A stretch of 64,000 nucleotides of DNA, taken from Burkholderiales bacterium (GTDB lineage Bacteria > Pseudomonadota > Gammaproteobacteria > Burkholderiales > Burkholderiaceae_E). Every line of letters starts with the position of its first letter. Position 1 is the stretch's first letter. The stretch is taken from assembly GCA_027487815.1 (NCBI GenBank), contig JAIYCW010000067.1, positions 186,001 to 250,000 of the forward strand. Direction: 5' to 3'. Of the stretch, positions 5,542 to 45,851 are shown piece by piece. The notes below the pieces were generated by a model. The model was not told where the DNA came from. It saw only the letters and a program-made list of their open reading frames with translations, and made no database searches. Position numbers and translations under genes: made by a program.

Positions 5542-5565
5542 CTGATCGCCACCAGCAGGCGTTGA

Positions 5566-9162: not shown

Positions 9163-11617
9163 GCCCTATTGCAGCCTCAAGGGTGTTTGCATTCTCATCC
9201 TTGCGCTGCTGATCAGCTCGCTTGCCATACAGGCAGAGGCGCGCACGCAACCCGATTTGCCTGGCTTGCTTATGTCGCCTCCGTTGTGGGCACATCAAGT
9301 GCAAGCGGTAGAGCGTGGTGCTTCTGCCCCCTCGGAGGCCGATCTTCACACCGATCTGATCATCAGCCTGGGCGACACCCAATCGAGCTGGCACCCAAAC
9401 GATGCAGAGCGCGCGTTAGCTGGCACCGATGTGCTGCGCCCACGGTCCGCGATTCAGGAAGTGGGGCGACATCGATTTCCGGGGTGGGCGGGCTTTGTGC
9501 TCAGAAACGCCAGCGATCAGGCACTCGACCAAGTGATCTATCTCAATCACCCCACCACGGACTTCGCGGCGCTCTATCGCTGGACCGGTTCGCAATGGGC
9601 GCAGGTGCGGGGGCGCCATGAAACCGCAATCGGCTGGTTCGAGCGCGACCGTTATCCGAGTTTCGATATCACCCTGCCTGCAGGCGCAACCCACTGGTAC
9701 ATGCTGCGTCAGCACACTGTATCGCCCATGCGATTTACCCTGGTCGCGCAAAACAATCCGGCCCATAAAACCGATGAGCTATGGAAGCATCTGGTACTGG
9801 TGCCCGTGTTTTTGGTGCCGATAGCTGTAGGACTGTTGCTGGTTACTTTGCGCCGCCTCACCAACACCGGTGGCCAAGCACTGTTTATGAGCTTTATTGC
9901 GGCTGATCTGTTTGGCGCCTCCTGGCTGGTGGGCATTCTTCCTGAGCTGTTTCCCACCCACTCCCCCTTGACGCTGCGTGCCCTCGCGCAGACTTCCTAC
10001 GCGCTTGTTGCCCTGTTTGGATCGCTGCACCTGCTGCGCTTTCTCGACCTCTGGAGCCTTGCGCCCCGGGTCAGCCACGCGGTAGCCGCCTGCGCAATAC
10101 TGTTTGCGATCTCCGTCGCACTTAGTGCAATGCTTGATCCATGGCGAGCTTCCAATCTACTTATCGGCGGCTGTGCAATCAGCGTGTTGATCAATATGGC
10201 GCTTGCCGGATACGCATGGCGCAAAAACCGCCCCTACAGCGGGCTCTACACCCTGGCCTGGGGCGTCTATCTGCTCTCCTTTGTCATGTTTGCCCTTTAT
10301 AAACTGGAGTGGGTCATTCCCCATGCCTGGGGCATGACGGTGTACATGCAAAGCGCCGGCGTATGTTTATTGATTGGCTATGCGATTGCCAAATCGGTGA
10401 TCGAGCGCGACACTCGCCTCGGCGCTGCGCTGGAACAAGCCTACCGACAACGTACGCAGATCGAGCAGCTTTCCCTGGAGCGCGATCGCTTGTTTGCTGC
10501 GGCCAATCATGACTTGCGTCAGCCCCTGCAGGCGGTGGCCCTGAATCTGGAGCTGCTGCGAACCCGAGCGGCCGAGCATCCCGAGCTCAACACCATCATC
10601 GCCCGCATGCGTTTAGCGCTGGGATCCATGGGCGGCATGCTGAGCGCACTGCTTGACTTGCGACGCGCCGACCACACCGGCAGCGCACCCAATCTTGAGC
10701 CAGTGGAGTTGCAACCGCTATTGCAGCGCCTGGCAATTCAGTTTCGCGAACAAGCCCGAGCCAAAGGGCTGGCCCTGCGCCTGGTCTCTACGCGCGGTTG
10801 GGTCATGGCCGATGCGGTTTGGCTGGAGCGGGCCCTGAGTAACTTGCTCTCCAATGCCCTGCGCTACACCGAGCGCGGACGCATCGTTCTTGGCGTACGC
10901 AGAGGGCCAAAGGACGACCTGCGAATTCTGGTGATTGACACCGGCTCGGGTATCGCTGCGATGGATATCAAGCGTCTTTTCGGGGAGCATCAAAGCGGAA
11001 CGATCCATCAAGCAGGCCATCAGTTCCAGGACGATCGACGTTACGGACTGGGCCTGTATATCGTTCAGCGGCTCACCCAGGCGATGGGCGCACAGGTCGA
11101 CGTCAGGAGTGTTGAGGGCAAAGGGTCGCAGTTTGCAATCCAGATGCGAAGCGCTGTGCCCAAGCAGTCACCGCCCCGATCCGGGTTAGACCACGACGAA
11201 CCCGCTGAGTCTCTCAACGGACTGCAAGTCTTGCTGCTCGATGATGATCCGCTAACCCTCGCATCCCTGTCGGAGGCATTGCAACAATGCGGCGCAATTG
11301 TCACTGCCGAAAGTGACCCCTCAGCGATTCGCCTGCTTCTGGGGCGTCCGGCCCAACGCTTCGATATTGTGCTTTCAGACCTTTACTTTTCAGGCTACCC
11401 CTTGGGGCTGGAGTTTTTGCAGTTGGCCCGATTGAGCTTGCCTGAAACAAACCGCATGATGATGACGGCTGATCCCGAAGCATTGCGCAAATTACTGCTT
11501 GATCCAGAACTGATCACTCAAACTTTCCCCAAACCGATCAGCCTGCTGGATCTGACCCGAGGGCTCGGCCGGGTAAATCGGGCCGTTGCGACAACCCAGG
11601 CTGACACCAGGCTTTGA
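9149..11617 (+). CDS. Hybrid sensor histidine kinase with 7TM-DISM sensor
   Basis: A membrane sensor kinase of about 822 residues. A signal peptide (ILILALLISSLAIQA) is followed by a periplasmic beta-rich domain of the 7TMR-DISM extracellular type (WAGFVLRN, YLNHPTTD, YRWTG), seven hydrophobic segments, a dimerisation domain with the phosphoacceptor His in NHDLRQPLQ, an ATPase domain (NLLSNALRYT, DTGSGIA, YGLGLYIVQ) and a C-terminal receiver (LLLDDDP, phosphoacceptor in VLSDLYF, Lys in FPKPI). Start choice: TTG 9149 leaves the signal peptide near the N-terminus; an ATG at 9086 would add 21 residues inside the response-regulator gene. DISM sensors are thought to bind small ligands, often carbohydrates; the ligand here is unknown. 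Confidence 0.88.
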   Translation: MSCIKPYCSLKGVCILILALLISSLAIQAEARTQPDLPGLLMSPPLWAHQVQAVERGASAPSEADLHTDLIISLGDTQSSWHPNDAERALAGTDVLRPRSAIQEVGRHRFPGWAGFVLRNASDQALDQVIYLNHPTTDFAALYRWTGSQWAQVRGRHETAIGWFERDRYPSFDITLPAGATHWYMLRQHTVSPMRFTLVAQNNPAHKTDELWKHLVLVPVFLVPIAVGLLLVTLRRLTNTGGQALFMSFIAADLFGASWLVGILPELFPTHSPLTLRALAQTSYALVALFGSLHLLRFLDLWSLAPRVSHAVAACAILFAISVALSAMLDPWRASNLLIGGCAISVLINMALAGYAWRKNRPYSGLYTLAWGVYLLSFVMFALYKLEWVIPHAWGMTVYMQSAGVCLLIGYAIAKSVIERDTRLGAALEQAYRQRTQIEQLSLERDRLFAAANHDLRQPLQAVALNLELLRTRAAEHPELNTIIARMRLALGSMGGMLSALLDLRRADHTGSAPNLEPVELQPLLQRLAIQFREQARAKGLALRLVSTRGWVMADAVWLERALSNLLSNALRYTERGRIVLGVRRGPKDDLRILVIDTGSGIAAMDIKRLFGEHQSGTIHQAGHQFQDDRRYGLGLYIVQRLTQAMGAQVDVRSVEGKGSQFAIQMRSAVPKQSPPRSGLDHDEPAESLNGLQVLLLDDDPLTLASLSEALQQCGAIVTAESDPSAIRLLLGRPAQRFDIVLSDLYFSGYPLGLEFLQLARLSLPETNRMMMTADPEALRKLLLDPELITQTFPKPISLLDLTRGLGRVNRAVATTQADTRL

Positions 11618-26138: not shown

Positions 26139-26999
26139 GTGCTTGAAGCCTTCCCCAACTTAGGGCTGCCCAAACAAACCTTTTATTGGACCAAGAGCCT
26201 TGCCAAGAGCTTGGGACGCCTTCTTGTAAAACGAGTGCGGCGTGATTCGACAGTGGTTGCAAGCGAATACGACGGCGGGCATTGGGCAAAACTCCTTAAC
26301 GAAGCGCCGTGGCAGAACTTCAACAAGGCCAAGGACTACCTGGCTGGAGTGGACTCGAGCGCACTCGTTTGCCGTATAGGTAACCAATACAAGAAGGTCA
26401 CGAAACAGGACTACTACCGGGATCGAATCTATGCGCTGAGCGAGTTTATCGCTCCTTACATTTTGGATACCCGTCGGGTAGTTGAACTTGGCTGCGGAAC
26501 TGGATACAACTTGCTTAGCCTCGCAACCAGTGATCCGGAGCTCCAACTCGAAGGCTATGATTTGTCGCCTAATGGGATAGCCGCTGCACGTCAGCTGTTC
26601 AAGCACTTTGGTTGTTCTCCGGGCATCGTTTTGGATCAGATTGATTTAACGCTAGCGAGCCACCCGAATTTCCCTGCCATTCATAACAAAGCTGTTTTCA
26701 CATTTTTCTGTCTCGAGCAGATTCCCTACTCGATAGACAAAGTCGTTGAAAACATCCTGAGGCAACGGCCATTGAGAGTGGTTCATGTGGAGCCTGGTGT
26801 CGATCTTTTGCGGGCAGGCAACCCCATGGACTGGCCCAACTGGCTGTACGTTCGCTCGGTGGACTATCAGACCCAGCTGTTTCGTTGTATCGAGCGGCTC
26901 GAATCAGCGGGCCAGCTGAAGGTAATTGAAAGACGGCGCCTGCCGTTTTCGCCCACGATTCAGAATGACGGCATGTGCATTATTTGGGAGCCAATTTAG
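26139..26999 (+). CDS. Class I SAM-dependent methyltransferase
   Basis: A protein of about 286 residues with a SAM-binding Rossmann core starting at VVELGCGTGYNLLSLA (near residue 111), then GYDLSPNGI as the acidic second strand and FTFFCLEQIPYS in the place of the later motif. The N-terminal 100 residues (VASEYDGGHWAK, RIGNQYKKV) are not familiar. Translation would begin at a GTG; no in-frame ATG occurs until far into the gene and no strong ribosome-binding site is visible, so the true start is unsure. It is the only plus-strand gene inside the minus-strand glycan locus, convergent with the WecA-like gene by a 20-base overlap. Modification of the glycan or its sugar precursors is a reasonable inference. 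Confidence 0.7.
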   Translation: MLEAFPNLGLPKQTFYWTKSLAKSLGRLLVKRVRRDSTVVASEYDGGHWAKLLNEAPWQNFNKAKDYLAGVDSSALVCRIGNQYKKVTKQDYYRDRIYALSEFIAPYILDTRRVVELGCGTGYNLLSLATSDPELQLEGYDLSPNGIAAARQLFKHFGCSPGIVLDQIDLTLASHPNFPAIHNKAVFTFFCLEQIPYSIDKVVENILRQRPLRVVHVEPGVDLLRAGNPMDWPNWLYVRSVDYQTQLFRCIERLESAGQLKVIERRRLPFSPTIQNDGMCIIWEPI

Positions 27000-27984: not shown

Positions 27985-28982
27985 TATTCTTGGCGCTCAC
28001 GGGCACGAGCGGCCATCCAGTGGCGGGCCACCAGCGCGATTTTCTCGCTAACATCCACATTGTTGTTCCAACCCATAGTCGCAACAGCATTGCTACTGTC
28101 AATAATCAGGCGATTCGCCAATTTAGACCACTCCAATCTACGCCCGGTGATTGTCGCTGAGGCTTGGAGTATTGCTTGTGGTAGTGAGAACATTCTCAAC
28201 GGCTCACCAAGCCCATCTCCTATAGCGGCAAGGGTGGAGCTCATGCTGATAGGTTGAGCATCTGCTGCAACAAAGCAACCACTATTCTTTTGGCTGTTGG
28301 TTGCTGATCGGTAAAGCAGGTCAACCAAAGAATCGATCCATACCATCGACCGCATATTGGTTAGCCCCGCGAAAGGTAATGGCCACCCTGCATGACAAAG
28401 TCTAATCAATCTGGGCAGGTTACCTGGGCAGTCTGGACCGTAGACCATGGCCGGTCGTATGACTGTCATTCGGGACACATCCTGGCCAAAAAGGATGCGT
28501 AATGATGACTCAGCGGCAAGCTTCGATAGTGCATAAGGCTCTTTAGGCGCAAAAGGGCTAAGCTCGGTGATTGGATCGAGAGACTGTGAGCCGTGCACCC
28601 CTATGCTGCTTACAAACACAAATCGCTCCACGCCAGCTAAAAGAGCACCCTTCGCCACTTGTACGGCAAGCTTATGATTTATTGCATCAAAAGAAGTGTG
28701 ACCATTCCCTCCCGAAGGTTGATGAGCTAGGCCAACCAGATGAATCACATATCGAATTCCACTGAATACATTTTCCCAGTCAGTATCTGTCCTGAACTGG
28801 CTGGTGGAACGCACGATCACATTTTCAGGAAGCTGTCTGGACCCCTCCCGGCTAAGTGCAAGCACAGCATGCCCGCGCCTAGCGAGAAACCTCACTAGGT
28901 GGCTCGCGATGTACCCGCTCGCGCCAGTAACCGCAAATTCTGCATTCAAGGTGCAACTCAAAAAACTCGGTACTTCCACCAC
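27984..28982 (-). CDS. NAD-dependent epimerase/dehydratase, WbpV-like
   Basis: A protein of about 330 residues in the extended short-chain dehydrogenase family. It has the nucleotide-binding GASGYIASHL, the catalytic SSIGVHGS and YALSKLAAE (YxxxK). Its closest look-alikes are WbpV-type 4-keto reductases and UDP-glucose 4-epimerase-like enzymes. With WbpM (45967-47856) and the WbpL-like transferase that follows, a 4-keto reduction giving UDP-QuiNAc or UDP-FucNAc is the natural role. The start is uncertain: a GTG at 28982 overlaps the end of the GT2 gene by 25 bases, and a TTG at 28949 is an alternative just before the nucleotide-binding strand. Confidence 0.8.
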   Translation of the reverse strand: MVEVPSFLSCTLNAEFAVTGASGYIASHLVRFLARRGHAVLALSREGSRQLPENVIVRSTSQFRTDTDWENVFSGIRYVIHLVGLAHQPSGGNGHTSFDAINHKLAVQVAKGALLAGVERFVFVSSIGVHGSQSLDPITELSPFAPKEPYALSKLAAESSLRILFGQDVSRMTVIRPAMVYGPDCPGNLPRLIRLCHAGWPLPFAGLTNMRSMVWIDSLVDLLYRSATNSQKNSGCFVAADAQPISMSSTLAAIGDGLGEPLRMFSLPQAILQASATITGRRLEWSKLANRLIIDSSNAVATMGWNNNVDVSEKIALVARHWMAARARERQE

Positions 28983-29713
28983 GCTCGAGCCGCGTAGTTT
29001 GAAAAGTACCAGGCAGAGGTTACTGTTCCCAATTGCTCGATCCGGCGATAAGTATTCCAGACCTCCCGAGCAGACTTCCCCTTATTTCGGGATACGGAGT
29101 GGCTCATAACTCGATAACGCATTAAATCCTGATCTATTCCTATCGCCCAGCGATGCGGCCGCAGCAGCTCAAGCCAACACGCAAAATCATCGTAGTACGT
29201 AGCCTTCATTTGGAAGTCCCCGGTACGCTTACGATCAACCAAAACTGTCGAGGTAGCAATTGCCGTGTTACCAAGCAGTTGGCGATAGCTCAATCGACTT
29301 GGCACTCCGATGTATCGCCCTGTGACCTGGCCCAAGGCATCTATACGTCGAAAGCCGGTGAAGCCAAGACATGCATCACTGTTTTGGAGTGCCGTTAGCT
29401 GCAAATCAAGTTTATTGGGGAGCCACAGATCATCACTATCAAGAAAAGCAATCCACCGGCCTTGAGCTCGTTGTAAGCCGGCATTTCTGGCTGCTGCAGG
29501 GCCCCCGTTACGGTCTTGACGCAAAGGCTTGATGCGTGGATCAGAGCGGGCGTGTTCTTGTAAAACCTCGAAGGTGTTGTCAGGCGAACAATCATCAGTA
29601 ATCAAGAGCTCCCAGTTTGGATAACTCTGCGCCTTTACGGAGGCGATGGTCTGAGCAACATAGGGGGCGGCTTTCCAAGCTGGGGTAACGATCGACACCA
29701 GTCCGTCGTTCAT
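28958..29713 (-). CDS. Family 2 glycosyltransferase
   Basis: A 251-residue inverting glycosyltransferase of the GT-A fold. The N-terminus VSIVTPAWKAAPYV, the GPAAARNAGLQ element and the metal-binding FLDSDDLW (DxD) are typical GT2 motifs. There is no membrane anchor, so it should act at the cytoplasmic face on lipid-linked intermediates. ATG 29713 overlaps the stop of the upstream Wzy-like gene by ATGA and gives the standard family N-terminus; starts further upstream are possible. It is the only GT2 enzyme in the locus and could add xylose or another neutral sugar; the specificity cannot be read from sequence. Confidence 0.85.
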   Translation of the reverse strand: MNDGLVSIVTPAWKAAPYVAQTIASVKAQSYPNWELLITDDCSPDNTFEVLQEHARSDPRIKPLRQDRNGGPAAARNAGLQRAQGRWIAFLDSDDLWLPNKLDLQLTALQNSDACLGFTGFRRIDALGQVTGRYIGVPSRLSYRQLLGNTAIATSTVLVDRKRTGDFQMKATYYDDFACWLELLRPHRWAIGIDQDLMRYRVMSHSVSRNKGKSAREVWNTYRRIEQLGTVTSAWYFSNYAARAWWKYRVF

Positions 29714-31119
29714 ATCGCTCGCCCCTTGACTAGTTGCCATGGAACCATGGGGCCATACCAACGTGCCCATGCGGGCTCCAATACGCTAAACAGAACCATA
29801 GCCCCTAACTTTACCCAGAAAGTCCATACAGTCACTACATTCAACATGCCCCCTACCAGCACAATACACAACGCAAAGTAGACATAGGTCTGCCAAAACA
29901 GCGCGAGGTAGTAGCCTTGAATGATGGATCTGACCATCAGTGCTAGCAGCACCGCATAAGCTACACCCAACAACGCAACAACAACGATGCCGTGAAACGG
30001 CCCAATCCACTCATAAAGACTTTCCGGAAAGCCTCCGGTGTACTGAGTCCCATGTCCGAGGAGTTCCAAAGTTCGGGCGTCGCCCAAAACCAAGACCATC
30101 AGCATTTGCATCCCGGTGTTGCGGGTTGGGTCGAGCGGTTCGCTGAACATCCAATGGTAAGCCGCCACTGGATCCCAGCCTGCCGCACCAAACAACCTTC
30201 CGGCACTCACCCACCATAGCTCGACGGGCTGAATAAAAATCCGTTGATACAGGCTGTTGTTTCGCTCCGCTACGTCCTCGAAACGAATGCCGACATAACT
30301 ATTGGCCAGGGCGAGGACCACTACCATCAACAGCAAAGCAGCGCCAGTACCAATAATCCTTGGCCGCATGATCCAGGCTTGCAATCCAGTAAGAGCCACA
30401 AGAGAATTTTGTGATTTGTAGATAATCACTGCGGCAAACGGCAGCACGAAAAACGAACCGAACGCATAAAACGCCGAGAACCTGTGACCAGCAAGCAGGC
30501 AGTAGCCAAACACTGCCAAAAGGAGGACAACAAACCGCAAGTCATAGCAACCAATTTGGATCCGTCGAACTACACACAGTGTTCCGAAAAGCAGCATAAG
30601 CAAACTACCGTATTCAAATAACCAAAGGTGAAGCACGCCAGCGTGTTCCCTTGCATACTCAACTCGCTCCATACCAACGAATAGCGGAATTACCCCACGC
30701 AGAAACATATCGCCGTAAAGTCCCAGCAAAAATCCGACCCCGATCCCAAACACGATATCGCCAAGAGTCAAACCACCTGTTTGTGCGGCTGAGGGCTGTC
30801 TACGCTGGCTGAACAAAGCAGGCTTGGTCAAAATGCGGAACGTCAGCGCAGAAGCGCCAAGGAAAACCGCGAAACTGCCCCACAGATAAACGGCATAACC
30901 TGCACCCCCTACAAAGCGATCCACCTGATCAGCGAACAACGGTCCAGTGAGCTCAAGCGAAGCCGCAGCGACGCTTCGGTGTGCAATCATGACCAGGGTT
31001 AAAACGCTAGCCACGACAAAAGCTGGCGAATATCTGGCAAGCAAAACCGAAACGCAAACCAGTGCTAGTAGCCCTGCAATAGCTACCAGATGCCCTTCAA
31101 GGGCATACACACCCATCAT
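29710..31119 (-). CDS. Putative O-antigen polymerase (Wzy-like membrane protein)
   Basis: A 469-residue protein with roughly ten to twelve hydrophobic helices and a long polar loop in the second half (RFEDVAERNNSLYQRIF through GTQYTGGFPESLYEW). This topology and the position between flippase-side genes and glycosyltransferases are what one expects of Wzy polymerases, which are too divergent for motif recognition. The FPESLYEW stretch resembles the periplasmic loop of oligosaccharide repeat-unit polymerases. The start overlaps the stop of the preceding gene by ATGA. The call rests on topology and context. Confidence 0.65.
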   Translation of the reverse strand: MMGVYALEGHLVAIAGLLALVCVSVLLARYSPAFVVASVLTLVMIAHRSVAAASLELTGPLFADQVDRFVGGAGYAVYLWGSFAVFLGASALTFRILTKPALFSQRRQPSAAQTGGLTLGDIVFGIGVGFLLGLYGDMFLRGVIPLFVGMERVEYAREHAGVLHLWLFEYGSLLMLLFGTLCVVRRIQIGCYDLRFVVLLLAVFGYCLLAGHRFSAFYAFGSFFVLPFAAVIIYKSQNSLVALTGLQAWIMRPRIIGTGAALLLMVVVLALANSYVGIRFEDVAERNNSLYQRIFIQPVELWWVSAGRLFGAAGWDPVAAYHWMFSEPLDPTRNTGMQMLMVLVLGDARTLELLGHGTQYTGGFPESLYEWIGPFHGIVVVALLGVAYAVLLALMVRSIIQGYYLALFWQTYVYFALCIVLVGGMLNVVTVWTFWVKLGAMVLFSVLEPAWARWYGPMVPWQLVKGRAI

Positions 31120-32498
31120 GTTTGTAGAACCGCAGCCAATGCATCGGCCATTGCCTTAACACTGTCGTCATGGTCAACGTACAACTCACCACGTCGCGTT
31201 TGCCGCCAAAGCGCCTCAAACCACTTCAATGAGTCGGAATCCAGCTCCTGGCTTCGTGAGGCTTGAAGACAGCGTGTAATTGCGGCTGACAAGTCCGCAC
31301 CGCGCTCAAACGGCGTGATGAAGGGTGCATCGCTGTAAAAGGCATCGCCCAAAGCCAACACCGGAACGCCGAGCAAAGCCGCTTCCGCACCCGACTTGGA
31401 GTTCACAGTCACCACCGCCCTTGCACGACGCAAGACTTCATAATTATTTGTCTGCGCAGGTACCAACTTCAAATGATCATAACGCTTGAGTAACTGACCC
31501 ACCCGACGGGCATCCATGGCACCGATCATAGCTGGGTGTTCCTTGATCACCAGCTGCAAACCGTAAGGCAACGATTGGGCAATACGCTCGATGAGGGTTA
31601 GTTGATCAAGGTATTCGGGGGCCCGCAAGGTCAACGCCATATCCGCTGGAACGTGCAGGGGATAATAAACAAACTGCCCCAACTGATCCATCGAAGTGGA
31701 CATTGCACGCATCTTTCGAGCGTTGACAACCATTCTCAGGTGGGTTTGAACATGCCAACCAATATGTCCAAACTCCTGCCGCTTACCCAGCAAGTACTTG
31801 TCAACGACTTTTTGGACAAGACGCGTCAAGTTCCTCTGATTCAGCACTTTCTTGAGAGCCGCGGAGTAGTGATGTGCATCCTTCCGAGGTATAACCACCG
31901 TTCCGGCCTGCTTAGCGCTTTGCAAATAGGACAGCATTTCAGGACTGCAATCCAGCCCATGGGTACCGACTTCAGGCTTGGGCGCAGCAAAAGAGTTACG
32001 TGAAAAAAGCAACCCACCCTTGAAAAATGATGGCTCAATGAACCAGTGCTCAAGTTCGTGTTTGCGGGTAGCAAAGTAGACCCCTACTACTGACAGAAAA
32101 CCGCCCACTTCTTGGACTACCGTGATTTGCGCATACTGCTTGCTCAAAACCTTGAGTGCATGGTCGGCACACTGGAGGCAATCCGCAAGTTTGGCGACTA
32201 GATAGTCACTGTCTCCAACGCCAAAAGCCAGTCGTTCGTGTAAAACCCATTTATGCAGGTCCCGGATACCAAAGCTCTCAATCACCTCAATGCTTTGAGC
32301 CCGAGTACGGTCAGGTTGTCTGCTTCGCCCATCGAAGGTCAGGAGGCCAGCTGCCCGCAGCTCCTCTGTACTGCGATCGTCAAAGGACAAAAAAGCCAGA
32401 GTGACGCCGAGTTCCGCTGCCAGGAGTCCAACAGCTTTCCAATAGGAGGTCTGATACTGGGCCAGCGTAGTGACAAGGACCACTTGAGTCGAATTCAT
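31116..32498 (-). CDS. Capsule-type polysaccharide biosynthesis protein, putative GT-B transferase
   Basis: A 460-residue soluble protein. The C-terminal half resembles capsule polysaccharide biosynthesis (KpsC/KpsS-like) proteins: YPLHVPADMAL, the IKEHPAMIG strand-turn, and a nucleotide-sugar-binding-like VTVNSKSGAEAALLGVPVLALGDAF. In related families this region binds a CMP-activated acidic sugar, so the protein is a candidate transferase for one of the nonulosonic acids made by this operon. The N-terminal half has no recognisable motif. It overlaps both neighbours by four bases. Specificity is inferred from context only. Confidence 0.65.
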   Translation of the reverse strand: MNSTQVVLVTTLAQYQTSYWKAVGLLAAELGVTLAFLSFDDRSTEELRAAGLLTFDGRSRQPDRTRAQSIEVIESFGIRDLHKWVLHERLAFGVGDSDYLVAKLADCLQCADHALKVLSKQYAQITVVQEVGGFLSVVGVYFATRKHELEHWFIEPSFFKGGLLFSRNSFAAPKPEVGTHGLDCSPEMLSYLQSAKQAGTVVIPRKDAHHYSAALKKVLNQRNLTRLVQKVVDKYLLGKRQEFGHIGWHVQTHLRMVVNARKMRAMSTSMDQLGQFVYYPLHVPADMALTLRAPEYLDQLTLIERIAQSLPYGLQLVIKEHPAMIGAMDARRVGQLLKRYDHLKLVPAQTNNYEVLRRARAVVTVNSKSGAEAALLGVPVLALGDAFYSDAPFITPFERGADLSAAITRCLQASRSQELDSDSLKWFEALWRQTRRGELYVDHDDSVKAMADALAAVLQT

Positions 32499-33376
32499 GC
32501 GGTTCTCAAGAGCGCTTTTTCAATTGAATCTTGCACTCCCTTATCAATGAATCGTGGTTTTCCATCGGGAAACAGTCGGGGTAACGTAAGGTATGTCGCT
32601 GTGTAAAGCAATCTTTCATGGCCTGGTGCCATCCGACTACCCATATGAAGGCACCTTGAAGTTTCCACCAGGAAGGCGCTAAGGCGCTCTCCCGTCACTT
32701 CTTGCTTATGGGCATGCACAAACTCGATACCAAGACTCTCATCGGATCGATGGCTGCGCCAGCTGAATCGGCGCTGGTCGGAATGTGGACCAGCAATAAA
32801 GGTAAACGGGCCATCTTCTACAGCGGCCACATCGGTCAAATAAACAAACAGCTTAATGGTGTGCACATCATCATAATCTCGATGCCATAACTGGGAAGAC
32901 TCAAGCGCAGACTCGCTGTGCCGTGAAAGCGTCAGCAACACATAGTCCAGATAAGGCAACTCACCAAGCCTTGCAGCCAGCACCTTGGCGAGCGGCCGTT
33001 GCAGCGCAAACCTCACAAACGGGTTATCAGAGGGCAGTGCGCCATCTGTCATGTCAGCATCCAATAGCCGCGTCCAAAATTTCTTGCTGGTGTTGTGTTG
33101 AGTGGCCGGGCTTGTTTCACTTGAGAGCTTCAAATGAGCAGCCGCTGAGAGACTTGCCAACGCGTCTTGCTCAAGCAACTCATCGACGCGCACCCAACCA
33201 TGCAGCGCCAGCGCTTGCGCTGCATTGTTTTCCCTGGCGTTCAATTCAAAACTGCGAGCCAGGGCCCTGCGCTCCGAAACGAGCTTGGACTCCCAAAGCC
33301 TCAAAGCCGCTTTCGCCCCCTTTGCCAAAGGGGTACGGTTGGCATGCCACCAAATCCTGCTAACCAAGCTATTCAT
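32495..33376 (-). CDS. Phytanoyl-CoA dioxygenase (PhyH)-like Fe(II)/2-oxoglutarate oxygenase
   Basis: A 293-residue protein of the PhyH family. The facial triad is visible: His165 and Asp167 in LWHRDYDD and His244 in RCLHMGSR. An Arg in HERLLYTATY (about residue 255) is placed to bind 2-oxoglutarate. Members hydroxylate or otherwise oxidise small molecules, sugars, lipids or acyl groups. The gene is fully embedded in the glycan operon with four-base overlaps at both ends, so a sugar, an N-acyl group or a lipid-linked intermediate is the likely substrate. The N-terminal 50 residues are not part of the fold and are rich in basic residues. Confidence 0.8.
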   Translation of the reverse strand: MNSLVSRIWWHANRTPLAKGAKAALRLWESKLVSERRALARSFELNARENNAAQALALHGWVRVDELLEQDALASLSAAAHLKLSSETSPATQHNTSKKFWTRLLDADMTDGALPSDNPFVRFALQRPLAKVLAARLGELPYLDYVLLTLSRHSESALESSQLWHRDYDDVHTIKLFVYLTDVAAVEDGPFTFIAGPHSDQRRFSWRSHRSDESLGIEFVHAHKQEVTGERLSAFLVETSRCLHMGSRMAPGHERLLYTATYLTLPRLFPDGKPRFIDKGVQDSIEKALLRTA

Positions 33377-34908
33377 TTGCTATTGCCATTGTCTTTGGGA
33401 CGCCAAAACCCTTGCCTGAACAAAGCCCAAACCTTCACTCTTTGCCCATTCGTTAGCAGTACAAACCAGGCAAGAGCCCAAAGCGCTAGCAGGCAGGCGG
33501 CAATTGTAGCAATCAGCCCTTGCCACCCAAGGCTTGCAAGACTCAGACCAGGTATCACTCTCAATGAGAACAGCGCTGCCGCCAACCCCAGAAACGCCGC
33601 TAGTCGCCACCATGTTGAAGCGTTGACCCCTTGTGACTGGGCAACAATGCGCGCTTGAGGAACGAGCACGACGACTTGGGCAATGACTGTTCCCAGCACT
33701 ATGCTTCGCTCAGCGAGCATGTCGAGAAAGAACCACGCAATCGCATACATCACGAGGGTTTGCAAAAAACTAATTCGAATCCAACGGCGAAACTTTTCAG
33801 GTTGAACCATAAGCGCGGAGCCCCCGAAATTCAGTATCACTCCAAGCCCGGTGGCTACAAAAACGATGGCTGTCCACGGCCCATATTGCGCGAACTGCTC
33901 GCCCAGCCATAATCCCAGAATGCGGTCAGCCACAAGGCTGGATGCGATCACGGGAGGAAGCACAAGCACTGATACGACAACCAGTCCGAGTTGACCCAGT
34001 CGGCGCATCTGGCTTTCATCGCTTGCCTCATCCAACCGGGCTGCCACCGGCAACACACTTGAATTCAACAGTCCGAAAATCATCTTTGCAAACCTTGGCA
34101 AGCGCATGATGACGTCGAAAAGCCCGGCGGCTGCAGGACCAAGCCAGCCGCTAACTACCAGGGGCGGTAGCTGTGTGCTGGTGACTCCTAGAAGCTTGCT
34201 CACCCACATCGGGCCGATAGCCTGCCCCAAGCCTGAATACCGCAGCCTGTGCATTTGACTTAAGCGCAGGCCTGAGTGGCGTCGTGCCGTTCTGCGGCAG
34301 GCCTCAAGAACCGCCAAGGCGCGCAGCATCTGTACAAAGACAAAAGCGGCCCCGACATAGGAAAACCGATAGTCAAGTACAACCGCTGCAAAGGCTAGTG
34401 CTGCAAACACCAGGTTCACACCAATCTCAAGAGAGCGAAGTCTGCGGTAGGCCTCAAAACCCTTGAGCACCCCCTCGGCAACCAACAACACAAACAGGAG
34501 CGGTAAGGCTACGGCCGTCAGGTAAAGCAACCAAACCACGTCAGTGCGATACTCAGGGGGGACTTTAAGCAGTGCGGTCCACCACAGGGCTGAAAGAGCC
34601 AAAAACAAACCTACACATACCCCAATCACTACAGCAGCCATCAGCAGCGCTGTAATCTTTACCGAGGCATCCTGCCAGTCGGCAGATACCCGAGCGCGCG
34701 CCACCGCTTGAGTGGATAACTCGGAGAAGCCGAAGTCAAAGACCGCAAAAAAAGCAAGCGGCAAAAACAACCGTACCAGCACTAACAGACCATACTGCTC
34801 GATTCCATAAGCCTTGATGAGCACAGGAACCAAAACGAGCGCCAAAGCACTGCCCGCAAAAAACGCGGCTGCATTCACTGCGGTGTTAACTGCCAGTGCT
34901 CTAAGCAT
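33373..34908 (-). CDS. Polysaccharide flippase (Wzx/MATE-like)
   Basis: A protein of about 511 residues with twelve or more hydrophobic helices, of the oligosaccharide-flippase (PST/MOP) superfamily. The opening NTAVNAAAFFAGSALALVLVP and GIEQYGLLVLVRLFLP are typical of Wzx proteins, in which a Y/FG motif follows the first helix. It would move undecaprenyl-linked repeat units across the inner membrane for polymerisation. I chose ATG 34908, which follows the stop of the preceding gene by two bases; an upstream start at 34944 would overlap that gene. The C-terminus is positively charged and cytoplasmic. Confidence 0.85.
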   Translation of the reverse strand: MLRALAVNTAVNAAAFFAGSALALVLVPVLIKAYGIEQYGLLVLVRLFLPLAFFAVFDFGFSELSTQAVARARVSADWQDASVKITALLMAAVVIGVCVGLFLALSALWWTALLKVPPEYRTDVVWLLYLTAVALPLLFVLLVAEGVLKGFEAYRRLRSLEIGVNLVFAALAFAAVVLDYRFSYVGAAFVFVQMLRALAVLEACRRTARRHSGLRLSQMHRLRYSGLGQAIGPMWVSKLLGVTSTQLPPLVVSGWLGPAAAGLFDVIMRLPRFAKMIFGLLNSSVLPVAARLDEASDESQMRRLGQLGLVVVSVLVLPPVIASSLVADRILGLWLGEQFAQYGPWTAIVFVATGLGVILNFGGSALMVQPEKFRRWIRISFLQTLVMYAIAWFFLDMLAERSIVLGTVIAQVVVLVPQARIVAQSQGVNASTWWRLAAFLGLAAALFSLRVIPGLSLASLGWQGLIATIAACLLALWALAWFVLLTNGQRVKVWALFRQGFWRPKDNGNSK

Positions 34909-34910
34909 GC

Positions 34911-36296
34911 CTAATTGCCATGTGCTTTTTGGATGCCAACGCACCTACTGCTTCCGCTCCAAGACAGGGGCTGGCTCAGCGTGCTGACGACATGGCCTGC
35001 ATCCACGCCGGCTAGACGCTTGATGATTTGCTCCACATCCCAGCGATCAAAGTTTTTCGATGCAAGGGCTTTGAACTGGGCAGGATTACGCCAGCGTTTA
35101 ACTGCTTGAACAGTACGGTACCCGAGGAATTGACGCACCAGAGTTCCCGAAGAGTCGTTGCGCCGTTCATGAAGCGTCGGCTCGCTGGGCTCCGACGAAG
35201 GCTTGGGTAAGCTCGTACCGTTCACCAAGTGCGCCAAGTCGTGGGCAATTCGCTCGGCGGCAGAGCCGTCGATCTCGTGATACGAGTCACGGATTACACG
35301 TTGACGGGCTAGTTGCAAGGCTTCGTCCAATACGGGAAGACCGTAATCATCGATCCCCTTGAGAAATGCCACCAACTGATCGACACTGCCACAGCGACGA
35401 CTGACAGCTGTCGGGCCATCCAGTGCCAGAGCTCCTCCAGCAAGCCAATCCATGGAGATGACCTCGCGATGCATCATTGAGGCTTCCACAGCGGTAGAGC
35501 AGTTTTGATGCACCAGGATCTTTGAATCTCTGAGCCACGGTAAAACGGACCCCTCCTGACGAACTTCCACATTAGCCAGACCAAGCCTTGCATAGGCCAG
35601 GGGTGATTCGAAAGGATGAGGGCGTACTACAAATCGTTCATTGGGCAAAGCTGTAGCAACCTTCTTTATGGCTTCAAGCATGCCTGTAAAGCCGACACGG
35701 TTAGCGCTCAGGAACTCCCGTGCAAACGCGTCAGTAAATCCCGCAGAGCGCATCGCGCGAATCTCGTCTTCCGGACCGGTTGAAAACCTCGCATTGATTA
35801 CAGGAAAGTTGGTATTGAACAATACATAGCCAGGCGCGATGGTTTCTGGCAGGCTTTTCTTCCAGGGGTCAGCGCAAAAGTCAAAGCGCGGACAGCCGCT
35901 TAAGAATGGGGCCGGCCCGCCAAGGCCTGGATGCGCAATGAATTGATCATGCTGTGCCTCGCCCCACAGGTAATACCGATCAACACAATCGTATCCATTA
36001 ACCGAAGCGACCATGTCGGAAAAGTGCTTGGCAGACTTGCCGCCGACTCCCTCTGTATCCAGTATCGCAACCCTGGCCCCAGCAGACCGATATTGCCGCA
36101 GGGCCTCAAGATTATTGCTGCGAAGATAGTTGCTGACAACTACGTCCGGTTTGAGCTTGGGAATGTCAAACCGCTGCGAGTGCATCGGTACCAACCAGAC
36201 TTTGGCTCCCAGTTTGGTCAGTTGCCACCCTAGCAATACGAGTCCGTCCAGATCGCGAAGTGGGTTATCAACAATTAGACATACAGTAAAGGCCAT
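34911..36296 (-). CDS. Surface carbohydrate biosynthesis protein, putative GT-B transferase
   Basis: A 461-residue soluble protein resembling the proteins annotated as surface carbohydrate biosynthesis proteins, which often accompany nonulosonic-acid genes. Recognisable parts are the N-terminal CLIVDNPLRDLDGLVLLGWQL, ILDTEGVGG, SGCPRFDF, the FVVRPHPFES strand and VHQNCSTAVEASMM, which together look like the C-terminal nucleotide-binding half of a GT-B enzyme. A role in transferring pseudaminic acid or another acidic sugar is plausible because pseI is immediately upstream (gap of three bases). No biochemical function is established by sequence alone. Confidence 0.65.
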   Translation of the reverse strand: MAFTVCLIVDNPLRDLDGLVLLGWQLTKLGAKVWLVPMHSQRFDIPKLKPDVVVSNYLRSNNLEALRQYRSAGARVAILDTEGVGGKSAKHFSDMVASVNGYDCVDRYYLWGEAQHDQFIAHPGLGGPAPFLSGCPRFDFCADPWKKSLPETIAPGYVLFNTNFPVINARFSTGPEDEIRAMRSAGFTDAFAREFLSANRVGFTGMLEAIKKVATALPNERFVVRPHPFESPLAYARLGLANVEVRQEGSVLPWLRDSKILVHQNCSTAVEASMMHREVISMDWLAGGALALDGPTAVSRRCGSVDQLVAFLKGIDDYGLPVLDEALQLARQRVIRDSYHEIDGSAAERIAHDLAHLVNGTSLPKPSSEPSEPTLHERRNDSSGTLVRQFLGYRTVQAVKRWRNPAQFKALASKNFDRWDVEQIIKRLAGVDAGHVVSTLSQPLSWSGSSRCVGIQKAHGN

Positions 36297-36299
36297 AAG

Positions 36300-37358
36300 T
36301 CAGAGAGGCTGCAACAAATCCCACGACATCGCAGTTCCGCGAGCCACTGCACGCGCTACAGGCTTGCCTAAAAGTGCAGGCAAGAACTTCGGAGGCAATC
36401 CAAATCCGGGACGGATTGCCCGCAAATTTTGCGCTGTTAAAACTTCTCCTGCGGCAAGATCCTCGGTAACGTAAAGCGAGCGACGAAATACGGTTGATTT
36501 GAGTTCAGCCTGGCCTGGGCCATAGCGAATCTGTCCGATGGCCTGCCACGCACGTTCGGTCTCGATTACCAATTGCGCAAGTTCTTCGGGCTCCATCGAA
36601 AAAGTGGAATCAACTCCCCCATCGCTTCGCCTCAAGGTGAAGTGCTTCTCTACAACGGTTGCTCCAAATGCCACAGCCGCGACCGCCGCGCCCACGCCCA
36701 TGGTGTGATCAGATAAGCCGACCTGGCAACCAAACAATTCGCGCATGTGGGGGATGGTTGCCAGGTGCGTGTTGACAGGGGTGGCCGGATAGGTGCTTGT
36801 ACATTTGAGCAGTATGAGCTCCCGGCAACCGCTATCGCGCGCGCAACTTACAGCTTCATGAAGATCGGCAACTGAAGCCATTCCAGTAGAAATGATCAGC
36901 GGCTTGCCTGTGCTCGCTGCCCTCGCGATCAGGGGCAAATCAAGGTTTTCGAATGATGCGATTTTGTAGGCTGGAGCATCAAGTGACTCAAGAAAGTCTA
37001 TGGCTGTCTCATCAAAGGGGCTGCTGAAAGCCACCATCCCATGGGCTCTGGCCCTCTCGAAAACAGGCTGATGCCATTCCCATGGCGTATGAGCTTTTTC
37101 ATAGAGCTCATAGAGGCTTTGACCTGCCCAAAGACTGTCGGGATCGTCGATCATGAACTCGCGCTCTCGCAAATCTAGGGTCATCGTGTCAGCCCGATAG
37201 GTTTGAAGCTTTAGCGCATGAGCACCAGAGGCCGCCGCCGCATCAACGAGCATCAGGGCTCTATCGAGACTTTGATTATGGTTACCCGACATTTCTGCAA
37301 TAACAAAGGGACGGTGCCCGGGGCCCAATTCAAACTGGCCAATCTTGATAGTGTTCAC
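36300..37358 (-). CDS. pseI: Pseudaminic acid synthase
   Basis: A 352-residue NeuB-family enzyme that condenses the 2,4-diamino-6-deoxy-altrose with phosphoenolpyruvate to give pseudaminic acid. The TIM barrel opens with FVIAEMSGNHNQSLDRAL, characteristic of PseI (sialic-acid synthases read AEIG.NHNG), continues with KLQTYRADTMTLD, CTSTYPATP and KHFTLRRSDGGVD, and ends with a C-terminal SAF (antifreeze-like) domain from about residue 290 (SLYVTEDLAAGEVL). The start codon is GTG and overlaps the formyltransferase stop (GTGA). It is the last sugar-synthesis step of the pse group in this operon. Confidence 0.92.
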   Translation of the reverse strand: MNTIKIGQFELGPGHRPFVIAEMSGNHNQSLDRALMLVDAAAASGAHALKLQTYRADTMTLDLREREFMIDDPDSLWAGQSLYELYEKAHTPWEWHQPVFERARAHGMVAFSSPFDETAIDFLESLDAPAYKIASFENLDLPLIARAASTGKPLIISTGMASVADLHEAVSCARDSGCRELILLKCTSTYPATPVNTHLATIPHMRELFGCQVGLSDHTMGVGAAVAAVAFGATVVEKHFTLRRSDGGVDSTFSMEPEELAQLVIETERAWQAIGQIRYGPGQAELKSTVFRRSLYVTEDLAAGEVLTAQNLRAIRPGFGLPPKFLPALLGKPVARAVARGTAMSWDLLQPL

Positions 37359-38029
37359 GATTCATCCTCGGGTTTATCGAGCTTACGTAAGGTAATGGCG
37401 TAGCGGTGGCCACGCAAATCAAAGTACGCGGGGTAACGCACCGGATCGCACACACGGAGCAAATCAAACTGCTCAGCCAATGACTGGTACGGATCGAGTT
37501 GACTGTCCTGCGGTGTTCGTCGACGATAGCTGCTGGCTGGCTCATCGGCTTGAACGCGGGGGTTTACGCTGCGCCAGTGTTGTACGGCAAATTCAATCAG
37601 TTCGACCTCTGCTTCAAATAGCAATGTATTGAGCTCATCAACCAACTCATGGCCATTGAGCCGGATTTTCTTTTGATGCCAGATCGGACCGGAATCCACA
37701 GGCTCGCAAGCCTCGATCAAACTTACCGTTATCTCGTTTGCACCGTCAATGATTTGCCAAATCATCGGAGACCAACCCCGGCCTCTGGGTAAATCGCTCG
37801 CATGGATAACCAGCACCTTGGCATAGCGGGCAATCACGGACGGACGTGCGATCTCCGAGCATGACACCAGGACAAGTAGGTCACCTCCCTGTGCGTCATC
37901 AAGCCGATGCACCAATCCAAAGTGACCCGAGGGTCGTACGGATGCACTGTGGGCGCACCACGCCCGCAAATGGGGAATAACGGGATGCGCCGGATCTGTA
38001 CATACCAGGCAGACTCGCAAGCTACTCAT
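37355..38029 (-). CDS. Formyltransferase-family protein in the pse cluster
   Basis: A 224-residue protein of the formyl_trans_N fold. The active-site region is VIHASDLPRGRGWSP with His76, followed by Asp112 in EPVDSGPIW, matching the His and Asp of the Asn-His-Asp triad of methionyl-tRNA and UDP-sugar formyltransferases; the Asn position is Val74 here. It lies between pseG and pseI, overlapping both by four bases, exactly where many pse clusters have the acetyltransferase pseH, which is not present in the window. The inference is transfer of a formyl group from 10-formyl-tetrahydrofolate to the 4-amino group of the pseudaminic-acid precursor (the future N-7 position). Confidence 0.75.
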   Translation of the reverse strand: MSSLRVCLVCTDPAHPVIPHLRAWCAHSASVRPSGHFGLVHRLDDAQGGDLLVLVSCSEIARPSVIARYAKVLVIHASDLPRGRGWSPMIWQIIDGANEITVSLIEACEPVDSGPIWHQKKIRLNGHELVDELNTLLFEAEVELIEFAVQHWRSVNPRVQADEPASSYRRRTPQDSQLDPYQSLAEQFDLLRVCDPVRYPAYFDLRGHRYAITLRKLDKPEDES

Positions 38030-39054
38030 CCAAGGGCAAATTCATTAAGGTAGGTCGCGACACGTCGCGCCCCAAGACCGTCAACCAACGAGCGGCCTAT
38101 ACGCCACTGCTCCATCCTGCTTGAAGGAGAGTTAATCACATTCTCGATTGCATGAGCCAGCTGTTTAACACTCACTGCGCTGGCCGGGCCCGCCCAGAAG
38201 GTCAGCCCCGCTGCATGCGCACTTTGCCCGATGGCCAACTGATTCTCAGCCACGCTTACAACCACACTTGGTAGGCCGAGACAAGCCCGCTCCCAGGTTG
38301 ATGAGCCTGTGGCACCGATGCACAAGTCCGCCCAAAGCATATGGTCTACCACCGCCTCAGTATGCCGAATGACCTCCACCCTGTCTGTTTCGGCATATCT
38401 AGCCACAATCTCACTGGCACGGGGGTTTGCTGCACCGACTATTGCACGAATTTGACGCACTCCCCCAACCAGTGCAAGCGCTTCCAGCGCTAATTCCGTA
38501 AGCCCTGTCGGATCAGAGCCTCCAGCCTGAATAAGGACCTTTTGTACTACCGGAGCAGGTGTGTAGTGCGCCCTTTTAATGGCGAACTCGGGTCGCAACA
38601 AAGCATACCGTGGTCCAAGTAACTGCTGAGTTGTCGGCCGAATCCAACGCGAATAACGCATGGAAGCATCGGGGAAAAAATTCTGGTCAAGTAAAACATC
38701 AGCTGCATGGGGCCGACTCGCAGTGTCATCAATAGCAAGCAGGCAGTGTGCAATAGATTGCGCCTGCACCTCCCACGCGCTATCCAGCTCGTAATGGTCA
38801 ACTATGATGAATTTGAAATCCTCAGCAAAGTTCGGCAGGTGATCGATGGACGCATCTTCGACCCAATGCCAATCCACCCAATGAATACTTTGAAGAAAAT
38901 CCTTCAGTCCGGGACTTACTCCACTAAGAAAGCTAATCGAGGAACCCTGGCGACGTAGCTCATCGGCCAGAGTAAGGCAGCGTTGAATATGGCCCATTCC
39001 TATGCTGGGTGAAGCATCGGCCCTAAACAATGCTTTCGGGATAGCGGCACTCAC
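38026..39054 (-). CDS. pseG: UDP-2,4-diacylamido-2,4,6-trideoxy-altropyranose hydrolase
   Basis: A 342-residue GT-B-fold hydrolase that removes UDP from the activated altrose intermediate before condensation by PseI. The N-terminal loop ADASPSIGMGHIQRCLTLA contains the catalytic His of PseG, and the C-terminal nucleotide-binding region shows LIQAGGSDPTGL and IGATGSSTWERACLGLPSVV. Length and motif order match PseG (about 280-360 residues). The start codon is GTG overlapping the pseF stop. Because the acyl group at C4 is probably formyl here, the enzyme may have to accept a formylated substrate. Confidence 0.9.
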   Translation of the reverse strand: MSAAIPKALFRADASPSIGMGHIQRCLTLADELRRQGSSISFLSGVSPGLKDFLQSIHWVDWHWVEDASIDHLPNFAEDFKFIIVDHYELDSAWEVQAQSIAHCLLAIDDTASRPHAADVLLDQNFFPDASMRYSRWIRPTTQQLLGPRYALLRPEFAIKRAHYTPAPVVQKVLIQAGGSDPTGLTELALEALALVGGVRQIRAIVGAANPRASEIVARYAETDRVEVIRHTEAVVDHMLWADLCIGATGSSTWERACLGLPSVVVSVAENQLAIGQSAHAAGLTFWAGPASAVSVKQLAHAIENVINSPSSRMEQWRIGRSLVDGLGARRVATYLNEFALG

Positions 39055-39758
39055 CCTTCCAAGTCCCCTGTTCTCAATAAAGTGAACAGCTGTTCAGCGC
39101 GCGCCCAGTCCTCGACAGTATCGATATCTTGAACTCGACGATGATCCAGTGCCCAGGCTAGGCTATTACCTTGGTACATGCTTCGTAGGTCAGCAAATGC
39201 ATCGGGTCTGCCCCAATAGAACTGTCCAGCATCATGCCAAGCCTCCTCGAGATCCTGGGAACGCCGCAAAATTGCCTCGGCAAACATCGGCTCAACGCTC
39301 CCATCTGCTTTCACACGCAAGCTGCGTTGAATGGGAAACTCAAATCGGGTTACCGAAAAGAGGAAGTCCATCAATGAGTCTTCAAATCGGAGGCAACTTT
39401 CCTGAAGGTCAACAGCGCTAACAAATGGCGCAGTCGCATATAGACAGCATACCGACTCAAATTGGCTTCCATGCGCCCGCAGATGGCGAACGGCATGACC
39501 AACCACAGCATTGGTACCAGTAAACGCATCCGCCAAATCTGCAGGGCGTAGGAATGGTACCTGCGCGCCCGAATTGTGCGCGACTTCGGCGATCTTCGGA
39601 TCATCGGTAGATACGATAACCTGATCAAAAAGTCCGCTCTCCAAAGCAGCTTCGATCGAGTAAGAAATGATCGGTTTACCGACAAAAAGCCGAATGTTCT
39701 TGTGAGGAATTCGCTGGCTTCCTCCTCGCGCCGGTATGACTGCTAGACGGGGGCCCAT
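39051..39758 (-). CDS. pseF: Pseudaminic acid cytidylyltransferase
   Basis: A 235-residue CMP-sugar synthetase that activates pseudaminic acid with CTP. The CTP-binding P-loop-like motif is PARGGSQRIPHKNI (the SQRIP-K variant is that of PseF; NeuA has SKGLPGKN). QVIVSTDD, CCLYATAPFV and the C-terminal RVQDIDTVEDW complete the family pattern. It lies eight bases after pseC and overlaps pseG by four bases. This is one of two cytidylyltransferases in the operon; the other is at 44190-44891. Confidence 0.92.
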   Translation of the reverse strand: MGPRLAVIPARGGSQRIPHKNIRLFVGKPIISYSIEAALESGLFDQVIVSTDDPKIAEVAHNSGAQVPFLRPADLADAFTGTNAVVGHAVRHLRAHGSQFESVCCLYATAPFVSAVDLQESCLRFEDSLMDFLFSVTRFEFPIQRSLRVKADGSVEPMFAEAILRRSQDLEEAWHDAGQFYWGRPDAFADLRSMYQGNSLAWALDHRRVQDIDTVEDWARAEQLFTLLRTGDLEG

Positions 39759-39766: not shown

Positions 39767-44189
<4,423 letters not shown>

Positions 44190-44200
<11 letters not shown>

Positions 44201-44891
44201 GATTGGCGCCATACAAAGCATGGTTCATCAGTCCCTCAACCACTAAAAAATCCTCAACGGAGTCAATCTCCCAACTTTCAATCTCAGCCATTTCAAACAT
44301 CGCTATCTTGCCGCCTAACCGGTTCTTCAAGTCTTGGAGTATTGCGCAACGCGTAATGTAAATTGATCCGTTTTCACGATATTGACGATCTTCAGGAGAA
44401 ATGTCCTGGCGCCGGGGTCTATGAACATAATCGTAGTTAGCTTTTGGTGTTGAAGGACTGGACCAAAAGAAGGCGTGGCTTGCGCAAACGCTTACCAGCG
44501 AATCGGCTTGTTCAGCTTCAAACTTCTTGATAGCGGCGTCTAAAGTGCCAGCGAGCCGTAAAGGGGAAGTTGGCTGCAACAACACAACTGCATCAAAAGC
44601 GCCTTTATGCAAGGTCGCTAACGCAAGAGCGTATTCCAGAACAGGCTCCGTTGCAGTGGTATCTTGGGCTAAGGCGGCTGGGCGTAGCTCGGGAACCCAC
44701 GCTCCTGCTGCCAATGCTGTATCAGCTATCTCCCTGCTATCGGTACTAACGAGGACGGTGTCAATCGCCTTGCACGCCTGGGCTTGCTCGATCGACCACT
44801 GAACGAGCGGTTTCCCACAAAGCTTCCGAACGTTCTTTCCTGGCAATCCCTTGGAACCACCACGCGCTGGAACTACCGCTAGGTAACGCAT
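44190..44891 (-). CDS. NeuA-type CMP-nonulosonate cytidylyltransferase
   Basis: A 233-residue acylneuraminate cytidylyltransferase-family enzyme. The nucleotide motif is [17 protein letters not shown], with [21 protein letters not shown] and [10 protein letters not shown] all present. The SKGLPGKN form and the QPTSPLR element are those of NeuA and LegF rather than PseF. It begins directly after the UDP-xylose synthase stop and overlaps the CBS-NeuB fusion gene by 11 bases, so it very probably activates the product of that fusion enzyme. Whether the sugar is a legionaminic, sialic, KDN-like or other nonulosonic acid is not determined. Confidence 0.85.
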
Positions 44892-45851
44892 TTAATTTGC
44901 TGGCAGGCGGGTCTTAAAGTAATCAATGGTTGCCAATAGTCCATCCCGCAATGCCACAGTAGGCTGCCAATCAAGTTTATCCCGCGCCTGGGTGATATCG
45001 GGGCAACGCTGCATCGGGTCATCGGCTGGCAATGGCTTGAAGACTATCTCTGAATCGGAATTGCACAGCTCAACTATGATTTCAGCGAGCTGGGAAATTG
45101 AATACTCCACCGGGTTACCCAAGTTGACTGGCCCCGTCAAGGCAGCATCAGAACTCATCAGTTTCATCAAGCCACCAATCAAATCGTCTACATAACAAAA
45201 GGACCGTGTCTGACGACCGTCACCGTAAACGGTGATCGGTTTTCCCTGCAAAGCTTGCACGATCAAATTCGAAACAACTCGACCGTCGTCGGGGTGCATT
45301 CGCGGCCCGTAAGTATTGAATATCCTGGCCACTTTTATCTCGAGCTTGTGCTGCCGATGATAGTCAAAAAACAAGGTCTCCGCGCAACGCTTGCCTTCGT
45401 CGTAGCACGACCGGATTCCGATCGGATTCACGTTTCCCCAATATTGCTCGGTTTGAGGGTGTACATGCGGATCGCCATAAACCTCGCTAGTGGAAGCTTG
45501 CAGGATTCTCGCGTTGAGGCGTTTGGCGAGGCCGAGCATGTTAATCGCCCCGTGTACGCTGGTCTTGGTGGTTTGAACCGGATCGTGCTGGTAATGAACC
45601 GGGGAAGCTGGGCAAGCCAGATTGAATATCCGGTCAACTTCAACGTAAAGGGGAAAGGTGACGTCGTGGCGCATGAGTTCGAAACGGGGATGCGTTCGGA
45701 GGGTCTCAATGTTGGCCAATGCGCCAGTGTAAAAGTTATCTACACACAGCACTTCATCGCCCGCTTCCAATAAGCGCTCGCACAAGTGCGAACCAAGAAA
45801 ACCCGCCCCGCCCGTCACTAGCACCCTTAGACGGTCAAACTTGAATCGCAT
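44892..45851 (-). CDS. UDP-glucuronate decarboxylase (UDP-xylose synthase)
   Basis: A 319-residue extended short-chain dehydrogenase that decarboxylates UDP-glucuronate to UDP-xylose. The diagnostic features are [31 protein letters not shown], the [20 protein letters not shown] stretch, and [11 protein letters not shown], which includes the catalytic Tyr and Lys. These match the UXS family better than UDP-glucose 4-epimerase. It is the first gene of the long minus-strand operon and ends one base before the next start codon. No UDP-glucose dehydrogenase is in the window, so UDP-glucuronate must come from elsewhere. Confidence 0.88.

Follow-up and report, generated by a model that had tools for sequence, protein, structure and literature searches.

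A PhyH-superfamily oxygenase family is linked to nonulosonic acid synthesis genes and may oxidise the sugars that they make

We analysed a 64,000-nucleotide stretch of a Burkholderiales contig, referred to here as the window, in which a run of minus-strand genes extends from position 45851 to 26980 with intergenic gaps of at most 8 bases (Table 1). One gene of this run encodes a 293-residue putative oxygenase, P0001, whose reading frame is open throughout, while frame 1 of the plus strand contains many stops over the same interval. The gene shares exactly 4 bases with the flippase gene before it and exactly 4 bases with the KpsS-like gene after it, as described in the first-pass annotation, which had placed a dioxygenase inside a glycan operon with both of its ends overlapping glycan genes. 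The open reading frame is beyond chance, because homologues in several phyla keep the same residues and the structural model is confident (see below). A search for tandem repeats found none, and a promoter scan returned fewer sites than shuffled sequences and was uninformative. Since LPS genes (a Kdo transferase domain and heptosyltransferase I) lie at 19–21 kb, the glycan cluster is likely an O-antigen locus, although it may be a capsule locus instead. A methyltransferase-like gene at 26139–26999 lies on the plus strand within the otherwise minus-strand cluster.

Table 1 Features of the glycan gene run in the window
Feature	Position	Strand	Remarks
Family 2 glycosyltransferase (GT2)	28958..29770	-	Homologues 50–52% in L115, L117
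DUF6418 protein, probably Wzy polymerase	29710..31119	-	PF19982
KpsS-like glycosyltransferase	31116..32498	-	PF05159 Capsule_synth; gene after dioxygenase
PhyH-superfamily Fe(II)/2-oxoglutarate dioxygenase P0001	32495..33376	-	293 aa, ATG start
Wzx-like O-unit flippase	33373..34944	-	PF01943, E 9.1e-11; gene before dioxygenase
TIGR04396 surface carbohydrate biosynthesis protein, candidate NulO transferase	34911..36296	-	
PseI pseudaminic acid synthase	36300..37358	-	TIGR03586, 490.9 bits, above cut-off
Formyltransferase in PseH place	37355..38029	-	PF00551; no NCBIfam match above cut-off
PseG	38026..39054	-	TIGR03590 above cut-off
PseF cytidylyltransferase	39051..39758	-	TIGR03584 above cut-off
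PseC aminotransferase	39767..40924	-	TIGR03588 above cut-off
PseB dehydratase	40921..41925	-	TIGR03589 above cut-off
Second NeuB-family synthase	41918..44221	-	CBS-NeuB-SAF-TIM-barrel fusion, 767 aa
Second cytidylyltransferase	44190..44891	-	PF02348; below PseF cut-off
SDR sugar dehydratase/epimerase	44892..45851	-	Adjoins second synthase unit

The formyltransferase of the pseudaminic acid genes is a likely substitute for PseH, from which a 7-N-formyl pseudaminic acid is predicted; homologues of it also occur in the clusters of three related loci (L035, L037 and L115). The second unit resembling a nonulosonic acid (NulO) pathway spans 41918–45851, and the TIM barrel of its NeuB fusion is xylose-isomerase-like. 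Since synthase and sugar isomerase are joined in one protein, the product may be an unusual ulosonic acid. The window thus holds two NulO-type pathways, and P0001 may serve either.

Assignment of P0001 to an enzyme class depended on its relatives. Queried alone, the protein matched 0 Pfam families at E ≤ 10 and 0 NCBIfam models at E ≤ 0.01, its best phmmer match in the PDB reached an E of only 0.31 (HygX, by entry title), and its single match in PHROGs, a terminase small subunit (E 0.007), was at chance level; single-sequence scans of genome_contigs, viral_contigs and phage records gave no result. At the family level, 63 of 81 aligned members matched PF05721 (PhyH) at E ≤ 0.01, and a profile built from the 81 sequences matched solved structures of ectoine hydroxylase (E 2.8e-9), leucine hydroxylase (GriE), SnoK, PhyH-type dioxygenases and HygX, with weak matches to EvdO1 and kanamycin B dioxygenase. 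An AlphaFold model of P0001, computed with 72 sequences as input (pLDDT 89.3, pTM 0.90), has the double-stranded beta-helix fold of the PhyH superfamily. Foldseek returned 392 PDB matches for this model at E ≤ 0.001 (best E 6.4e-10), the best 50 of which were all 2-oxoglutarate (2OG)-dependent oxygenases or related halogenases, with PhyH-type oxygenases at the top. VIA alignments gave Z values of up to 17.8, this one for ColD (rmsd 3.2, 222 aligned residues), and the list included SnoN (Z 16.0, rmsd 3.7, 214 aligned) and KanJ (Z 15.6, rmsd 3.9, 233 aligned). Because Z values in the VIA list were nearly tied and identity to the model was 10–20%, the fold picks no particular reaction.

The residues named in the first-pass annotation as an intact His-x-Asp...His triad were found where they had been placed (H165, D167 and H244), and the best candidate for the 2-oxoglutarate arginine that it mentioned is R255, eleven residues after H244. 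By analogy, the triad would be the metal ligands and R255 the 2-oxoglutarate arginine. All four were invariant, in 10 of 10 and 81 of 81 aligned sequences and in 8 of 8 close orthologues, as were F177, D182, V183 and G189 across the 81-sequence alignment. Further residues invariant among the 8 close orthologues (the window's included) comprise K98, W101, H209, D212, C242, S247 and R248, which are possible contacts to an acidic sugar. A 2OG halogenase of the HalB/BesD type, in which the triad Asp is replaced by Gly or Ala, is disfavoured by the invariance of D167 (81/81). With complete active site, family profile and model fold in agreement, P0001 is a PhyH-superfamily Fe(II)/2OG oxygenase, and to the extent that sequence and model can decide, this class is settled. 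The earlier 'PhyH-type' label accordingly holds through the family profile and the fold, and not from the protein sequence alone. In the records consulted, relatives were annotated as phytanoyl-CoA dioxygenase or hypothetical protein and nothing else.

Relatives were collected by sequence and not by context, in a single scan of genome_contigs that yielded 80 loci; a few further relatives came from genomes of the window's class and order and a few from plasmids. Duplicates (L001–L006, L020, L096–L100) and fragments or weak rows (L022, L026, L065, L073, L095, L101, L102) were dropped before counting, and L034, L044, L093, L094, L103, L104 and L105 were dropped by choice before alignment; near-copies (L007/L043, Azospirillum and Nitrospirillum groups) are contained in the set. 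A NeuB/PseI synthase was encoded in the fetched flank at 31 of 79 relatives' loci and, where nearly all of both flanks was available, at 23 of 49, as counted with a profile of seven sequences, five of them from the relatives' loci themselves. By blast, the synthase was PseI-like at 21 of the 31 NeuB-bearing loci and of other NeuB types at 10. We take the NeuB-positive loci, from the genus names in their titles, to belong to Pseudomonadota, Bdellovibrionota, Bacteroidota, Verrucomicrobiota, Cyanobacteriota and Chloroflexota.

Sphingobium plasmid pTK1 carries its relative in one run with genes annotated as pseB, C, F, G, H and I, and at L024 the dioxygenase gene is flanked directly by the cytidylyltransferase gene on one side and NeuB on the other. 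At two Salinisphaera loci (L011:12481-14178 and L020:5800-7497), NeuB is fused to a D-lyxose-isomerase-like cupin, its neighbours are a HAD phosphatase and a cytidylyltransferase, and the module shows no gene for N-acylation; at L012, NeuB lies beside a KdsC-like phosphatase, again with no visible N-acyl gene in the module. Judged by gene content, these modules appear to lead to ulosonic acids that lack N-acyl groups. A protein of about 490 residues at L024:11600-13063 had no Pfam match; it has homologues in L019, L023 and L027, and this family, which directly adjoins NeuB or the cytidylyltransferase, perhaps comprises NulO transferases. On Azospirillum plasmids (L008, L009, L010; ~7–10.5 kb) the relative adjoins genes annotated as SRPBCC and sialidase family, with no NeuB in the flank. 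NeuB was missing from the fetched flank at 48 of the 79 loci, 18 of these loci being shorter than 15 kb. Among the genomes examined for 38 of these 48 NeuB-negative loci, 28 encode NeuB elsewhere at E ≤ 1e-20 and 10 gave no match at this threshold; a tie to NulOs thus does not hold for the family everywhere.

To judge this association against background, we drew 114 genomes of the window's class, of which 30 encode NeuB, compared with the 28 of 38 above. NeuB lay within 10 kb of 1 of 58 PhyH genes, and this single gene (G043) is itself one of the relatives (L013); for O-unit flippases the count was 5 of 119, one of them the window's own. Fisher's test of 31/79 against 1/58 gave p 3e-8 with kinship ignored, with controls from one class, on draft contigs and with same-contig coordinates compared by eye, and relatives from many phyla. 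Mapped on a quickly built tree, NeuB presence needed 16 changes compared with a mean of 25.9 after shuffling, and 0 of 500 shuffles were as low. The tree group that contains the window was NeuB-positive in 9 of 11 members, a grouping with support of 87 that is not starred and rests on the midpoint root; branches were long for L014, L015, L012, L019 and others, and L019 and L014 are possibly joined falsely. In a later draw, a profile built from five close sequences was run on 398 genomes of the phylum and matched 6 besides the window's, and all 5 fetched loci had NeuB within 10 kb, three of the five being from one genus and the locus of G745, which shares its genus with G758, having been left out. 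The dioxygenase family is linked to NulO synthesis.

Close orthologues share more of the window's gene order. The nearest (41% identity), at L016 in gammaproteobacterium IMCC1989, has the window's immediate neighbours on its two sides, namely homologues of Wzx (25%) and KpsS (38%), and lies downstream of a PseI (65%). Another contig of that genome (L120) carries a cytidylyltransferase (54%), a CBS-NeuB-TIM fusion (62% in its NeuB part), pseB and pseC in the same order as in the window. In three genomes of one genus (L115–L117) the order is Wzx, dioxygenase (39–40%), TIGR04396, and L116 and L117 have a KpsS homologue (~40%) one gene further from the dioxygenase. The synthase of these three is not PseI-like (34–35% to the window's PseI), and its neighbours at L115 are a DegT aminotransferase, a UDP-GlcNAc 2-epimerase family protein, a formyltransferase, a CBS-nucleotidyltransferase and a cytidylyltransferase, a set which we take to resemble the legionaminic acid pathway. 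Close orthologues thus keep Wzx and KpsS-like or TIGR04396 neighbours while the NulO pathway passes from pseudaminic to legionaminic type. At L016, two members of the dioxygenase family (5162-6079 and 9977-10876) occur in one pseudaminic acid cluster; one adjoins a hexapeptide acyltransferase and the other has the window's gene order. In NeuB-bearing loci, no gene cluster is a direct same-strand neighbour more often than the one to which this acyltransferase belongs (10 cases), and every member checked (L016, L007, L028, L059) matched Hexapep; in the window, no hexapeptide acyltransferase gene touches the dioxygenase gene.

We propose NulO oxidation because the relatives repeatedly adjoin genes for sialic-acid-like sugars. 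P0001 would be a cytoplasmic oxygenase acting before the residue is flipped by the neighbouring Wzx, a timing suggested by the gene order, and its substrate would be a CMP-NulO or a NulO already transferred onto the lipid-linked O-unit. With iron held by H165, D167 and H244 and 2-oxoglutarate held by R255, O2 and 2-oxoglutarate would yield succinate, CO2 and an Fe(IV)=O species that takes hydrogen from the sugar and returns OH. Our first guess at the target is the C3 methylene, the position that KdoO hydroxylates in Kdo, and in some related loci the hexapeptide acyltransferase would cap the new hydroxyl. We consider it somewhat better than an even bet that P0001 hydroxylates or otherwise oxidises a NulO before flipping, with activity, substrate, position and timing all predicted; C3 as the position, proposed by analogy, carries about half of that confidence. 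The wider statement, that the family across six phyla hydroxylates NulOs at C3 or another backbone carbon and that acyltransferases cap the product in some species, is offered only tentatively.

The linkage leaves the substrate unfixed, and the Wzx, KpsS-like, TIGR04396 and GT2 neighbours would equally fit an enzyme acting on another O-unit sugar, in which case NeuB would be near because such O-units often contain both sugars. Persistence of homologues of these four neighbours while the NulO type changes speaks for this reading, as do the many loci lacking NeuB in the fetched flank; on the other side, NeuB proximity in the family is far above that of O-unit flippases, and the position of the L024 gene directly between cytidylyltransferase and NeuB also speaks against it. 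We regard oxidation of another sugar as rather unlikely.

The first-pass annotation had suggested hydroxylation of a sugar or an N-acyl group, and of these two the first probably holds. Pse and Leg bear N-acyl groups, and conversion of N-acetyl to N-glycolyl on pseudaminic acid or a relative would suit a family that so frequently partners Pse clusters, with PseI-like synthases in two-thirds of its NeuB-bearing loci (21/31). In the window, however, the formyltransferase in the place of PseH is the probable source of one acyl group, and formyl offers no methyl for hydroxylation; in addition, the NeuB, HAD phosphatase and cytidylyltransferase modules of L011/L020 and L012 are without visible N-acyl genes at the scope of the module. 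Since the type of the partner synthase varies, a target common to NulOs, such as a backbone carbon, is favoured, and an N-acyl target appears improbable. Other aminosugar chemistry, either oxidative deamination as by KanJ or epimerisation as by SnoN, both of which act on sugars, would fit the VIA results in that KanJ gave the longest alignments listed (up to 235 residues, Z 15.1–15.6) and SnoN reached Z 16.0, but with nearly tied scores and such low identity the fold does not choose the reaction, and we think this very unlikely. That P0001, as a PhyH protein, has degenerated or moonlights and plays no catalytic part in the glycan, a reading for which only its missing Pfam match speaks, is scarcely credible given an intact frame, catalytic residues kept in 81 of 81 aligned sequences, four-base overlaps on both sides and orthologues at 39–41% in similar gene order in other genera.

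In bacteria, NulOs influence how phages, hosts and immune lectins achieve recognition. A recurring oxygenase in NulO clusters predicts oxidised NulOs, forms which may be absent from structure databases and may escape chemical probes; hydroxylation at C3 or elsewhere on the backbone, if true, would mean that some sialic-acid-like sugars are no longer 3-deoxy and that a KdoO-like reaction has come from a different oxygenase family. The linkage also offers a testable substrate for proteins labelled phytanoyl-CoA dioxygenase or hypothetical protein. Fold and chemistry are already known, and the novelty lies in how repeatedly one PhyH subfamily occurs with NulO synthesis. Our search of open-licence papers found none describing a link between a PhyH protein or dioxygenase and NulOs, and in the retrieved part of PMC6120980 the word 'dioxygenase' appears only within a reference title. 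The nearest printed lead, going by the retrieved text, is XAC3597 of a Xanthomonas LPS cluster (PMC3130047).

Several PhyH tailoring oxygenases of antibiotic pathways (HygX, AviO1, KanJ, SnoN/SnoK) act on sugars. These PF05721 enzymes share with P0001 the fold, the HxD...H motif with its Arg and the predicted Fe(II)/2OG chemistry, whereas the P0001 family lies in cell-surface glycan clusters and identity over the model is 10–20%. CMP-Neu5Ac hydroxylase (CMAH) is an oxygenase that acts on a nonulosonic acid, which is its likeness to our proposal; it is a Rieske iron-sulphur enzyme unrelated to PhyH. The Kdo dioxygenase KdoO, which we take to belong to another Pfam family than PhyH, was not named among the PDB matches of the 81-sequence profile, and no sequence link to it was found, a weak test given that P0001 has no Pfam match and escapes even PF05721; its absence from the listed VIA fold matches carries no weight. 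The earlier remark that dioxygenases are not standard O-antigen enzymes is fair, yet two precedents exist. In Xanthomonas citri, XAC3597 (bdp11), described as 'similar to phytanoyl-CoA dioxygenase', lies within the LPS gene cluster, and according to the retrieved portion of the paper its insertion mutant was recovered for a biofilm defect and shows reduced swimming together with impairment of EPS and/or LPS (PMC3130047). Its likeness to P0001 is one of description and LPS-cluster location, with no NulO link stated in that portion. The other precedent, KdoO, is encoded in Burkholderia O-antigen clusters, according to the part of the source retrieved (PMC5462993), and its Fe2+/2OG-dependent hydroxylation of a 3-deoxy-2-ulosonic acid in LPS would be the parallel to the reaction that we propose for P0001.
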